DNA from: Alicyclobacillus sp. ALC3
GTDB lineage: Bacteria; Bacillota; Bacilli; Alicyclobacillales; Alicyclobacillaceae
Direction: 5' to 3'
Assembly (NCBI RefSeq): GCF_028751195.1
Contig: NZ_CP066784.1
Location: 1,550,001 to 1,614,000 of the forward strand
Length of the DNA: 64,000 nt
Positions within the stretch are counted from its first letter, which is position 1. Every line of letters starts with the position of its first letter. The position numbers and the translations under genes were made by a program. Under the pieces are notes generated by a model. The model had not been told where the DNA came from. It ran no database searches and worked only from the letters and a program-made list of their open reading frames with translations. Below are positions 16,975 through 48,458 of the stretch, piece after piece.

Positions 16975-17064
16975 GTGAAGTAAGAGACAAGGCGTAGTCG
17001 AACTATTTCCTTGCCTCTCCTTCCCGAACCGGACTTGCGCCTCTCAACGCATCCGGCTCTCCAT

Positions 17065-26162: not shown

Positions 26163-26541
26163 TGGTGGAGGCGACGGGAGTCGAACCCGCGTCCGAAGAC
26201 CTCGCCACGCGAACTTCTACGGGTGTAGATTGTCTACTGAGATGTCCCTATGCCGCGCGGACAATCACGCTCAACAATAGGTGAGTTCGTTTCATTTCAC
26301 CGGCGGCCCACGAACGCGTGCCGACGACTATCCCGCTAAGTTGACGTTACCGAGTGTGCACGGGCGACACACGGGGTAACGGCCTAACTGCAATTAAGCA
26401 GCGAGGGCGACGGTGGTGCTTTTTGAGGTAAAGCGGTTTGCTTTGCCAGTTAACTTATGGTCCGCGTTTTTTACGTGGCCTCGCAGCCCCACGACCCGCC
26501 ATTCACGCTCGAACTGTCCCCGTCGAATCCAAAGCGCCCCC
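26163..26541 (-). ncRNA. ssrA: tmRNA
   Basis: The 5' end reads GGGGGCGCTTTGGATTCGAC and the 3' end forms the T-arm GGTTCGACTCCC and closes with an encoded CCA at 26,163-26,165, giving about 379 nt. The tag reading frame is GKANRFTSKSTTVALAA followed by TAA. It ends in the ALAA degron recognised by ClpXP and starts after the usual resume region (AAGTTAACTGGC). The RNA rescues stalled ribosomes with SmpB, encoded just upstream on the same strand. The 3' end also serves as an integration site here. Confidence 0.95.
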
Positions 26542-31118: not shown

Positions 31119-33300
<2,182 letters not shown>

Positions 33301-40875: not shown

Positions 40876-41335
40876 CGTGATCCACCCTTCCTGTCTGGGG
40901 CTGGCCTCAGAATCGCGTACGAGCCTGCACAGCTTTCCCTGGTTGAAAGCGTATTCAAACAAGAGACAACGAGACGGAGAAGTCGGCGGATGGGAGGGTT
41001 GGACTCGTGATGGTCTATCCTGCCTAGTCTACATGTCCATATCAACACTTATTCTGCATCGTTGGCATGATTCCTGCTAGGGGTACTTGAAAAGATTTTA
41101 TGCAGCGGCTGGGTAAATCTTGCCTCCGTTCGCCCCATACGTGCATTTTCGCCCGATTGTAAGCGACTCTCGGTATGCCTGCCGTGCCGCTTAGTGGCAG
41201 TCCGGAATCGACTGTGTAGCAAACGAGCCTATGGAGAATACACATAGAGTACGGTCCGGCAGAGCACAAGCCGGTGGAATAAGCTCTGGTTGTCCACGGC
41301 ACGGCAGCCGGGTGAAGGAATGCGAGGGAGCGGCA
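40876..41335. other. Divergent intergenic region rpoN/comER
   Basis: About 460 bases with the promoters of two diverging genes. I see no RNA gene, riboswitch or strong repeat. Confidence 0.4.
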
Positions 41336-42151
41336 TTGCGCATCGGGATCATTGGAACAGGCAGCATGGGCGGCATGTTGGCCAAAGCGTGGGCCACGGC
41401 TGGCAAAGCGGAAGTGTTCGTATACAACCGTACGCCAGAAAAGGCGCGAGAATTAGCGCGCCAAGTCCCGCGAATCCACGTCGCCGCAAGCGCCCAGGAC
41501 GTCGCTCGGTTTACAGACGTACTGGTCGTCGCCACGCGAGCTTCGGACGGCCGCGTGTTGCTCAATCAAATTGGCGATATTCTCGCACCGTCGCAGGTTC
41601 TCGCCACCACTATCAGCACCATCCCGCTCACCGAACTCGAAACCTGTACGCGCGCCAAAGTGGCCAAGGTCATACCCAGCATCGTGCAGTCAGTCCAAAG
41701 CGGTGTACTTTTGGTCAGCTATGGATCGCGTTTCAGTGGCCCCGACCAGGAGGTCTTTGAGTCGGTACTCGGGCAGATTGCTCTCCCGTTCGCCGTCGGC
41801 GAAGACCAACTCCGCGTCTGCTCTGACTTGACGAGTTGCGGACCGGCCTTCATCGCGTCCATCCTGAACGCGTGGGCAGAAGCCGCCACCAAGACGGGGC
41901 GCATCAGCCGTGGCGAGGCGGAGTTTTTGATCACGCACACCTTTACCAGCACGGCCAACCTGTTCTTGTCTGGCTTGTCGGCCGCTGACGTCTTACAGCG
42001 CGTCACTGTGCCGGGAGGCGTGACCGAAGTCGGACTCGACGTCCTCGACGGGCGCGTTCGGGCGGTCTTCGAGGACCTGCACGCGCAGACTGAGCAGCAC
42101 AGTCGCTGCAAACCGGCGGTTCAACCGCTCGCATCTGGGCAGGAGTCGTAG
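41336..42151 (+). CDS. comER: ComER-like NAD(P)-binding protein (pyrroline-5-carboxylate reductase family)
   Basis: 271 residues from TTG 41,336, chosen because GAGGGAG precedes it by five bases and the Rossmann motif starts at once (RIGIIGTGSMGGMLAKAW); the frame is open to 41,231. The fold is that of ProC, with a C-terminal helical domain (LTSCGPAFIASILNAWAEAA, VTVPGGVTEVGLDVL). The divergence from true ProC, especially around the substrate pocket, matches ComER, a protein named after the late competence locus but of unclear enzymatic role. It converges on pepF across a 1.35-kb repeat region. Confidence 0.82.
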   Translation: MRIGIIGTGSMGGMLAKAWATAGKAEVFVYNRTPEKARELARQVPRIHVAASAQDVARFTDVLVVATRASDGRVLLNQIGDILAPSQVLATTISTIPLTELETCTRAKVAKVIPSIVQSVQSGVLLVSYGSRFSGPDQEVFESVLGQIALPFAVGEDQLRVCSDLTSCGPAFIASILNAWAEAATKTGRISRGEAEFLITHTFTSTANLFLSGLSAADVLQRVTVPGGVTEVGLDVLDGRVRAVFEDLHAQTEQHSRCKPAVQPLASGQES

Positions 42152-42169
42152 CGGGATGGGGCCCGTATG

Positions 42170-42238
42170 GGCCTGGCCGGGGGGCCTGGCCGGGGGGCGG
42201 GGCCGGGGGGCGGGGCCGGGGGGCGCGGGGGCGGGCGC
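42170..42238 (+). repeat. G-tract-rich segment
   Basis: Successive runs of four to six Gs separated by GGCC or CC spacers on the plus strand, immediately after comER. It could fold into a G-quadruplex in DNA or in the comER transcript and may act as a termination or pause site. Confidence 0.6.
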
Positions 42239-42250
42239 ATCGAGGGGCGC

Positions 42251-43051
42251 AGGTGTCATTTTGACACCTACGGGCGGTAGCAGGGCAGCGTAAGTGTCAT
42301 TTTGACACTTACGGACGGGACCACGCCTGCGTAAGTGTCATTTTGACACCTACGCACCGGACCACGCCTCCCTAGGTGTCATTTTGACACTTACGGGCGG
42401 AACCACGCCTACGTAAGTGTCATTTTGACACCTACGGGCAGGACCACGCCTACGTAGGTGTCATTTTGACACTTACGGACGGAACCACGCCTCCCTAGGT
42501 GTCATTTTGACACCTACAGACCGGACCACGCCTGCGTAAGTGTCATTTTGACACCTACGGACGGAACCACGCCTGCGTAAGTGTCATTTTGACACCTACG
42601 GACCGGACCACGCCTGCGTAAGTGTCATTTTGACACCTACGGACCGGACCACGCCTGCGTAAGTGTCATTTTGACACCTACAGGCGGAACCACGCCTACG
42701 TAGGTGTCATTTTGACACCTACAGACGGAAGCACACCTGCGTAGGTGTCATTTTGACACCTAGGGAAGGAACCACGCCTGCGTAGGTGTCATTTTGACAC
42801 CTAGAGAAGGAACCACGCCTACGTAGGTGTCATTTTGACACCTACAGACGGAACCACGCCTGCGTAAGTGTCATTTTGACACCTACGGACGGAACCACGC
42901 CTACGTAGGTGTCATTTTGACACCTACGGACCTGACCACGCCTACGTAAGTGTCATTTTGACACCTACGCACCGGACCACGCCTCCCTAGGTGTCATTTT
43001 GACACCTACGGACGGAACCACGCCTGCGTAGGTGTCATTTTGACACCTACG
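42251..43051. repeat. Tandem array of 20 palindromic repeats, 41-bp period
   Basis: The 13-bp core TGTCATTTTGACA occurs 20 times, from 42,254-42,266 to 43,033-43,045: 19 steps over 779 bp, exactly 41 bp on average. The core is invariant, while the flanks alternate TAGG/TAAG before and CCTA/CTTA after. The spacer is a degenerate ACGGACGGAACCACGCCTGCG-like sequence. The core is a palindrome with arms GTGTCA/TGACAC and a three-T centre. It could bind a dimeric regulator on one DNA face (41 bp is about four helical turns) or form a row of hairpins in RNA. There is no cas gene nearby and the spacers are not unique. Confidence 0.9.
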
Positions 43052-43086
43052 CACGGGATGGTAGTTTACAGGTGCGGATCTCGGCC

Positions 43087-43271
43087 GCCAATTTGGCGCT
43101 ACTGATACGCCAACGCCACTTTGGCCGGGTCTTCGCTTCCGCCATGTGCTGTAACGCCAAACTGGCGCTGTCTCAACAGCCGGACACAGTAATTGCGCCA
43201 GAATGGCGCTCCGCCTCTGTCGTCGACTTAGCACTAGAATCTCTCATGCTCCTGCGGAACGCCAAAATGGC
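43087..43271. repeat. Five copies of a second palindrome, GCCA-N3-TGGC
   Basis: Copies at 43,087-43,097, 43,115-43,125, 43,156-43,166, 43,197-43,207 and 43,261-43,271 have centres ATT, CTT, AAC, GAA and AAA. Arms are fixed while centres vary, as in binding sites of a dimeric protein. Spacings are 28, 41, 41 and 64 bp, so part of it keeps the 41-bp period of the neighbouring array. Confidence 0.7.
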
Positions 43272-43505
43272 CGCAAGAGACGATTTTCTCATCAATTGCC
43301 GGGAGACGAGCCGGCTCCCCCGCCCTAGTCCCCACCTTGGCCCATTCAAGGCCATTCATCGGTCACGGAACGGAAACACGAGAAGCCCCTTGGTTGCCAC
43401 TGGCTTGGTTACACTGGCTTGATCGCGCCCGGCCACGCCCCGACGCGTCCGATCGAGAGTCCGGTGAAGAAGGCGCGCACGGCGCGCCTCCCCCTACGCC
43501 TCCCC

Positions 43506-45308
43506 CTACAGCAGCTGGCCGAGTTCCTCCGTCTGCTTGGCGAAGAGGTCAATCGTGGTGCGGACGGGATCAGGCGAAGTCATGTCGACGCCGGCCAGCT
43601 TGAGCTGCTCAATCGGGTAGTCGGAGCCGCCACTCTGCAAGAATTTGAGGTAGCGGTCGACGGCCGGTTGGCCTTCAGTCAAAATTTGCTGGGACAGGGC
43701 CGTTGCAGCCGAGATGCCGGTCGCGTACTTGTAGACGTAGAACGAGTTGTAGAAGTGTGGGATGCGCGCCCACTCGAGTTCGATGTCCTTGTCGACGTCG
43801 CAGACAGGGCCAAAGAACTGCTGGTTCAACTCGTAGTAGGTGGCGCACAGCCACTCCGGCGTCAAGGCGCCGCCTTCGGTCGCGTACTGGTGCGCTAGCT
43901 TCTCGAACTCCGCGAACATCGTCTGGCGGAACAGCGTCGCGCGCAGGCGCTCGAGCTGGAAGTTGAGCAGATACGCGCGCGTCTGCTTATCCGTCGACTG
44001 CTGCAGCAAGTGGTGCAGGAGCAGGGCCTCGTTGCAAGTGGACGCGACTTCCGCGACAAAGATGGTGTAGTTCGCGTACACAAACGGCTGCGCCTCGCTC
44101 GAAAAGTAGGAGTGCATCGTGTGGCCGAGCTCGTGGGCGACGGTGAACACGTCGCTCATCCGATCCTGGTAGTTGAGCAGGATGTAGGGATGCACGCCGT
44201 ACACGCCGGCGCTGTACGCCCCGCTCGCTTTGCCCGGTGTCTCGTAGACGTCGACCCAACGCGAGTTGAACGCCTTCGTAGCAACCTCACCGTACTTTTC
44301 GCCGAGCGGGCGCAGAGCCGTTTTGACCGTTTTGACGGCTTCGTCATACGGGATCTGCAAATGCAAGTCCGGGACGAGCGGCGTGTAGAGGTCGTACATA
44401 TGCAACTCGTCGAGGCCGAGCACGCGTTTGCGCAGGCGCAGGTAGTCGTGCAGTTTCGGCAGTGCCTCGTGGACGGCGTCAATCAGGTTGTCGTAGACGG
44501 ACAGCGGCACGTTGTCATCGTCGAGGGCGGCTTCGCGCGCAGACCCATAGTTGCGTGCGCGGGCGTAGAACATATCCTTCTTCACGTTCGCCGAGAACGT
44601 TGCAGACAGCGTGTTGATGTGTTTGCGGTAGGTCGGCAAAAACGCCTCGAACACATTTTTGCGCACGTCCCGATTGCGACTCTCAATCAGTGAACCGTAG
44701 CGGCCGTGCGTCAGTTCAACCTCGTTGCCGTCCTCATCTTTCACCTTCGGAAAGCGGGTGTCGGCGTCATTGAACATCGTAAAAATCTGGTCCGGCGCCT
44801 CCGCCATCTCCCCCGCCATCGCGAGCAGTCGCTCTTCTGCCGCAGAGAGGATGTGCGCTTTGTGGCGCAGCATCTCGTTCAACAGGAACGTGTAGAGGCG
44901 AAGGTCCTCGTTCTCGGCGAGAAAGCCCTTGATGCGGTCCTCCGGCATCGCCAAAACTTCTGGGACAAAGAACGAGCGAGCACTCTCGGTCTCAATTAAC
45001 AGCGCGAGGCCGCGGTCGGCGAGCGCTTGGTACTCGGAGATGGTGTTGTCCTCATCGCGCTTGCGGTGCGCGTAGTTCAGCAGGCGCGAGGCCCTTTCGT
45101 TGATGTCGTCGGAGAGGCGCAGCGCTTTGAGCAGGTTTTCCGCCGAGTCACCGAGGTGTCCGGCGAGTTGCACAAGCTCCCCAGTCAGCGCCTTGATGTC
45201 CTCGGCGTCTTTGTCCCACGCCGCCTGGTTCTCGTAAATGTCTTCAAGGTTCCATTTGTACTGCGGGTCGATCTCGGCTCTCGTCGCTGGTGTCGTTTCC
45301 TTTGCCAT
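43506..45308 (-). CDS. pepF: Oligoendopeptidase F
   Basis: A 600-residue M3-family zinc metallopeptidase cleaving short peptides in the cytoplasm. The zinc motif HELGH lies in VAHELGHTMHSYFSSEA near residue 389, with the downstream glutamate in VAEVASTCNEAL. The N-terminal helical domain (PQYKWNLEDIYENQAAWDKD) and C-terminal GSDYPIEQLKLAGVDM are typical. The length is normal. It starts three bases after the end of the pdp-cdd gene and is probably co-transcribed with it. Confidence 0.96.
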   Translation of the reverse strand: MAKETTPATRAEIDPQYKWNLEDIYENQAAWDKDAEDIKALTGELVQLAGHLGDSAENLLKALRLSDDINERASRLLNYAHRKRDEDNTISEYQALADRGLALLIETESARSFFVPEVLAMPEDRIKGFLAENEDLRLYTFLLNEMLRHKAHILSAAEERLLAMAGEMAEAPDQIFTMFNDADTRFPKVKDEDGNEVELTHGRYGSLIESRNRDVRKNVFEAFLPTYRKHINTLSATFSANVKKDMFYARARNYGSAREAALDDDNVPLSVYDNLIDAVHEALPKLHDYLRLRKRVLGLDELHMYDLYTPLVPDLHLQIPYDEAVKTVKTALRPLGEKYGEVATKAFNSRWVDVYETPGKASGAYSAGVYGVHPYILLNYQDRMSDVFTVAHELGHTMHSYFSSEAQPFVYANYTIFVAEVASTCNEALLLHHLLQQSTDKQTRAYLLNFQLERLRATLFRQTMFAEFEKLAHQYATEGGALTPEWLCATYYELNQQFFGPVCDVDKDIELEWARIPHFYNSFYVYKYATGISAATALSQQILTEGQPAVDRYLKFLQSGGSDYPIEQLKLAGVDMTSPDPVRTTIDLFAKQTEELGQLL

Positions 45309-48232: not shown

Positions 48233-48302
48233 TTGACACAACACCCTTGACACAACACCCTTGACACAACACCCTTGACACAACACCCTTGACACAACAC
48301 CC
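48233..48302 (+). repeat. Five tandem copies of a 14-bp unit
   Basis: TTGACACAACACCC repeats exactly five times (starts 48,233, 48,247, 48,261, 48,275, 48,289) in the gap between the HD-GYP gene and the flippase-like gene. Each unit contains a -35-like TTGACA. No hairpin is formed. Confidence 0.9.
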
Positions 48303-48458
48303 TTCCACCGACACGTTGCGCCCGTCAAAGCGCCTCAACCGGCACGCCGCCCCCATGTCGTCAAGCGACACACACAGGTGATCGGCCGTGATACAATGCT
48401 TAAAGCGCCCATGGACTCGGACGTAGTCCCGGCAGCCTGTTCCCGGAGTGTGTATTGG

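Follow-up and report, generated by a model that had tools for sequence, protein, structure and literature searches.

Helically phased arrays of a 21-bp palindrome in an Alicyclobacillus chromosome, putative sites of a dimeric DNA-binding protein

Introduction

What does a long series of identical palindromes, set at a constant step between two converging genes, do in a bacterial chromosome? The question is raised by the window, the whole 64,000-nucleotide stretch of DNA analysed here, which comes from a 5.07-Mb array-bearing genome (G000). In the gap between the convergent genes of a ComER-like protein (ending at 42151) and of oligoendopeptidase F (ending at 43506) it holds 20 exact cores TGTCA-TTT-TGACA (TGTCATTTTGACA) at positions 42254, 42295 and onwards to 43033. 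We describe this array and its counterparts in G000 and in three related genomes, and weigh the explanations that can be given for them.

The array of the window

The sequence, the 20 copies, the 41-bp step and the location between convergent genes, all part of the original prediction, are confirmed by the listing of the sites (Table 1). When up to two mismatches are tolerated, the core has 21 matches in the window, while dinucleotide shuffles of the window give a mean of 1.41 and at most 5. TRF delimits the repeat to 42247-43056 with period 41, 19.8 copies and 89% matches. No T tail follows the units. The degenerate array of another palindrome family (C) directly beside it has sites starting at 43086, 43114, 43155, 43196 and 43260, spaced by 28, 41, 41 and 64 bp and separated by unrelated spacers; the last family-A centre (43039) and the first family-C centre (43092) are 53 bp apart.

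Elsewhere the window carries a group II intron domain match (16975-17061, minus strand; Rfam RF00029, 59.5 bits), a tmRNA whose predicted tag peptide, VGTRSWAAGEMKRTHLLLSVIVRAA, is unusual (26163-26541, minus strand), nested tandem repeats with units of 236-260 bp (32503-33257) and five perfect copies of TTGACACAACACCC just past an HD-domain gene (48233-48304).

Table 1. Positions of the arrays and of neighbouring features; coordinates without a locus label are those of the window
Feature	Position	Strand	Remarks
P5C-reductase family gene (P5CR), ComER-like, left flank	41231..42151	+	likely start 41312
G-rich 13-bp tandem repeat	42169..42229		between ComER and array
Family-A array, 20 x TARRTGTCA-TTT-TGACAYYTA	42247..43056		21-bp sites, 20-bp spacers, period 41 bp
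First and last 21-bp site of the array	42250-42270 and 43029-43049
20 invariant 13-bp cores TGTCATTTTGACA	42254..43045		19 steps, each exactly 41 bp
Degenerate family-C array, five CGCCA-NNN-TGGC(G) sites	43086..43272		directly beside the family-A array
Oligoendopeptidase F gene (Peptidase M3), PepF, right flank	43506..45308	-
Family-B arrays of G000, CTATGTGATCGAAA..GA(T/C)CACATAG-like palindrome	L273 10904; L276 2336; L281 1620; L284 18486; L336 8763; L343 598		period 42 bp
Clean family-C arrays of G000	L265; L272; L273; L274
MITE-like element, ends TTAGCGACATTTT / AAAATGTCGCTAA	flanks of L264 8731_R; L265; L266; L269; L270; L274; L275		inner TTAGCGACGCCTGCGTCGCTAA palindrome
G004 arrays, TTACGCAC-N5-GTGCGTAA	L407 1365; L408 17090; L410 13793; L413 9995

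Family-A arrays across the genome

This array is not the only one of its kind. A search of the whole G000 genome yields 266 exact cores with a TTT or AAA loop and, when other A/T-rich loops are included, about 31 arrays with 511 units, 465 of which have the exact TGTCA-NNN-TGACA core. Nearly all arrays are 4-33 units long and the 41-bp step separates 458 of the 477 neighbouring pairs. Weighted by array, the conserved site is TARRTGTCA-WWW-TGACAYYTA, with little information in the 20-bp spacers: the 13-bp core stands as it had been read, but the conserved unit is 21 bp long. The spacers form 14 unrelated families of equal length, 20 bp (median identity 0.45, shuffled 0.40). Loop type is uniform within each array, some spacer families and flanks of about 150 bp are common to several arrays, and GTAG is frequent at the edges of the units. 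All 31 arrays are intergenic, none overlapping a gene predicted by a simple gene finder. The sites are asymmetric, but no replication or replichore polarity of this asymmetry was found.

No family-A array was found in 397 other genomes of the phylum, and a viral origin was rejected, virus sequences giving only two single-site matches. When genomic and viral contigs were scanned with a wide gap, the matches listed were mostly isolated pairs; they also brought up the related Bacillota MAG YS1.bin19. A comparison of the initial 20 kb of the G000 plasmid with the plasmid collection gave no match.

At least two further palindrome families are present in G000, one with a period of 42 bp (B) and one with periods of 29+42 or 31+40 bp (C). 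Seven arrays have a "leader" in common at their side; it resembles a distinct MITE-like element, about 125 bp long and bounded by TTAGCGACATTTT and AAAATGTCGCTAA, which often directly adjoins family-A arrays.

Conservation of the site in a close relative

G001 is a related incomplete genome (a MAG) with about 90% DNA identity to G000. Its array-bearing contigs, seven out of seven, map to array loci of G000, among them the locus of the window (L290, 89.7% identity). Five pairs of orthologous arrays (23 units) show an unchanged core, 9 changes in 414 arm positions (2.2%) and 88 in 460 spacer positions (19%; p about 3e-17), an about 9-fold better conservation of the arms, on counts that underestimate divergence because each unit was paired with its most similar counterpart. 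Copy numbers of G001 were left out because they may be collapsed in a MAG. The core thus stays unchanged between species while the spacers diverge, in support of the selection on the core that had been proposed; from these alignments, purifying selection would appear to act on the site.

Other palindromes in other species

The sister species G002 (complete genome, PepF 75% identical to the oligoendopeptidase F of G000) has no array of the family-A site. Its sampled stretches hold about 57 arrays built on another 21-bp palindrome, TARGG-N11-CCYTA, with a step of 53 bp and with 24 unrelated spacer families. One of them lies between PepF and ComER, in the gap orthologous to that of the window, where an additional gene is predicted towards PepF. 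A third 21-bp palindrome, TTACGCAC-N5-GTGCGTAA, unrelated in sequence to that of the window, forms arrays with a step of 52-53 bp in G004, from another genus of the same family; none of the others among the 60 genomes searched has the motif in pairs. A 42-bp repeat of G004 (L383), first thought relevant, is probably a coding repeat.

Between G000 and G002 the position of the arrays is only partly shared, and a gap that holds an array in one genome does not regularly hold one in the other. Strict syntenic array gaps give 2 shared out of 11 (p = 0.065), and array-bearing gene ends give five shared (odds ratio 4.3, p = 0.017). Since this positional conservation is weak to moderate, we do not claim a shared position as a rule.

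Helical phase of the steps

An unbiased scan of G002 put neighbouring sites at distances of 42-43, 52-54, 60-65, 73-75, 92-94, 104-107 or 115-117 bp, the lone exceptions being one of 49 and one of 126; a reversed control pattern gave none in the same scan. The lower classes (42/43, 53, 63, 74) differ from each other by one helical turn. Once the main class and its doubles are set aside, the 54 spacings left give R = 0.86 at 10.5 bp. Spacing counts within one array are not independent, and independent phase observations are fewer than sites because most spacings of an array were copied from the same duplication. The off-step spacings of G002 do not go back to one duplication, since the 42-43 class occurs in seven separate arrays and the 60-64 class in nine. 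One array of G000 has steps of 50-52 and another has a single step of 52. Steps of whole turns are thus kept regardless of spacer sequence, as is proper to a helically phased protein-binding array. Dimers seated on one DNA face would need whole-turn steps across unrelated spacers, and the G002 exceptions, which jump whole helical turns, support the dimeric protein on one face of the helix that had been envisaged. In principle, the period could also reflect DNA curvature from phased W3 centres and not protein contacts.

Placement on the chromosome

Convergent gaps, which are 14% of all gaps in the sampled loci, hold 37 of the 86 arrays (43%; 11 of 31 in G000, 26 of 55 in G002). The convergent setting noticed in the window is enriched but not universal. 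Gene 3' ends are enriched for arrays. Divergent gaps hold 10 of 86, at the level of the background (13.4%), which together with the convergent excess speaks against the promoter operator offered among the original roles. Titration, offered alongside it, is implausible because each genome has more than 500 sites.

The dnaA gene is at 2.366 Mb in G000 and at 1.364 Mb in G002. The expected terminus falls within the longest arc free of arrays in both genomes. This arc makes up 33% of the chromosome in G000 (p = 0.003) and 24% in G002, where p is 0.009 but becomes 0.18 when a degenerate array at 3.51 Mb is included. A family-B array at 4.61 Mb lies inside the G000 arc. Avoidance of the terminus is only suggestive because the sampled array-free stretches are lower in GC, and this low-GC region is perhaps acquired DNA.

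Proposed function and alternative explanations

We favour, with moderate confidence, the hypothesis that the array of the window belongs to a set of about 31 chromosomal arrays made up of putative sites for a sequence-specific dimeric DNA-binding protein, phased by helical turns and most likely architectural. From the observed site, its phasing, its conservation and its distribution we infer that a protein binds the arrays cooperatively. One dimer would sit on each 21-bp quasi-palindrome, made of a 9-bp half-site, a 3-bp A/T centre and a second 9-bp half-site; whole-turn spacing would place all dimers of an array on one DNA face and in mutual contact, and the contacting dimers would build a regular nucleoprotein complex, of 4-33 dimers in G000. 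What such complexes achieve is a guess: they might anchor or insulate DNA, mark topological domains, or form protein roadblocks between converging transcripts. Site specificity would turn over, with TARRTGTCA at 41 bp and TARGG-N11-CCYTA at 53 bp in this genus and TTACGCAC-N5-GTGCGTAA at 52 bp in another. No gene family recurs beside the arrays, and isolated sites mark no obvious autoregulated regulator gene.

The other readings fit poorly. A functionless, palindrome-bearing minisatellite, amplified through slippage and spread through recombination, is the least improbable of them and still unlikely. It accounts for the concerted evolution seen in the uniform loop type of each array, for the spacer families and flanks that several arrays have in common, and for an uneven chromosomal distribution that reveals no even functional demand. 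A passive minisatellite would not be selected for unit sequence or phase, however, and here length is kept by unrelated spacers, exceptional steps are whole turns and arms differ by 2.2% where spacers differ by 19%. The original prediction held that absence from all close relatives together with drifted cores would favour a passive satellite, and the opposite is found: in G001 the array stands at its locus with no change in the core, and the same gap of G002 holds an analogous array of another palindrome. An RNA element, that is a hairpin ladder that would terminate transcripts or stabilise mRNA at converging 3' ends, is distinctly improbable. Every unit can fold and arrays are enriched in convergent gaps and at 3' ends, but Watson-Crick pairing at ±8 in G000 is 0.295 against 0.52 expected (10 of 31 arrays symmetric at ±8, p = 0.03), so that the pairing excess that such a ladder would call for is missing, and G002 sites are non-complementary in their inner arms, at ±1 to ±3. 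Moreover, the units lack a T tail, the array has no Rfam match, and RNA hairpins would not predict a fixed DNA period with helical steps.

Nucleoid-occlusion arrays like those of Noc or SlmA, protein-DNA complexes excluded from the terminus region, are a doubtful reading, somewhat less so than the RNA element. They agree with the expected terminus lying inside the longest array-free arc of G000 and G002, and NBS sites of B. subtilis avoid the terminus (PMC4331003). Against them stand the lower GC of the array-free region, the family-B array within the G000 arc, and a noc gene whose HTH stretch is identical in both species while the array sites differ; a Noc site of the ATTTCCCGGGAAAT type was not found in the sampled loci. 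True TGTTTCACGTGAAACA parS copies are located in parB of both genomes, and the arrays are unrelated to them in sequence. Canonical parS and a Noc with an identical recognition stretch occur in both species and leave their differing sites unexplained. The partition or origin site that had also been considered conflicts with the presence of a standard parABS and noc, with the number of arrays and with the distance of dnaA. REP/BIME-like elements, mobilised by a RAYT and with a gyrase-linked role at 3' ends, are the least probable of these readings. The intergenic palindromes, the GTAG edging many family-A units and the enrichment behind converging genes speak for them. The Y1 transposase domain (Y1_Tnp) occurs in G000 only as a 65-aa fragment, with one intact copy in G002; palindromes of G002 and G004 have no GTAG tag; and head-to-tail phased arrays are unlike the REP and BIME organisation described in PMC3733652 and PMC12306157. 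A CRISPR was rejected as spacers recur within and between arrays and no gene family recurs beside them, and a mobile element as no recurrent gene was found next to the arrays.

Returning to a dimeric protein that would read the arrays, we raise more tentatively the possibility of a new class of bacterial chromosomal element, in which tens of helically phased arrays per chromosome consist of 19-23-bp palindromes that differ between species. Each family of palindromes would have its own fast-evolving binder, which would stack regularly on the DNA to organise or insulate the chromosome. Site sequence and step (four or five turns) would be replaced between sister species and the architecture, sometimes also the locus, would stay. 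A search of the open-access literature, to which it was confined so that a prior description in subscription journals is possible, found no description of tandem or arrayed bacterial palindromes like these, and the passages searched in two REP surveys (PMC3733652, PMC12306157) mention neither the genus group nor such arrays. Intergenic palindromes scattered over a genome are familiar; what is apparently new, as far as we found, is their organisation in long head-to-tail arrays that keep to the helical repeat and have a species-specific word. A protein reading them would be a fast-evolving bacterial chromosome organiser of a kind so far undescribed, whose logic would be comparable to the turnover of eukaryotic centromere sequences. 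The locus lends itself to direct tests: G000 has 31 arrays, an ortholog has kept the cores unchanged, and the corresponding gap of the sister species holds a different site.

Relation to known systems

Plasmid centromeres and origin iterons (ParR/parC, TubR/tubC, Rep iterons) are tandem, helix-phased protein sites that build a nucleoprotein complex. The arrays described here differ in being chromosomal, in numbering about 30-60, in lying off the origin and in having no adjacent binder or NTPase gene. Noc-binding sites, SlmA sites and matS resemble them as palindromic sites at tens of chromosomal loci, with possible terminus avoidance, but these occur as single or few sites of conserved sequence, whereas here phased arrays have species-specific sites of 19-23 bp; the conserved Noc is excluded as the protein that binds the arrays. 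REP/BIME elements, including GTAG-tagged REPs, are likewise dispersed intergenic palindromes in many copies with enrichment at gene ends, and BIME-2 is bound by gyrase (PMC6379681). In contrast to them, the present arrays line up 4-33 units head-to-tail in steps of whole helical turns, conservation falls on the DNA site rather than on the hairpin, the palindrome differs from species to species, and G000 is without an intact RAYT. CRISPR loci have in common with the arrays a palindromic repeat and regular spacing, but the spacers here are 20 bp long, repeated and drifting, cas genes are absent, and a single 41-bp period is common to all loci. Intergenic minisatellites (VNTRs) also form tandem arrays subject to concerted evolution; the arrays are set apart from them by equal length despite unrelated spacers, by whole-turn steps and by a conserved palindrome.
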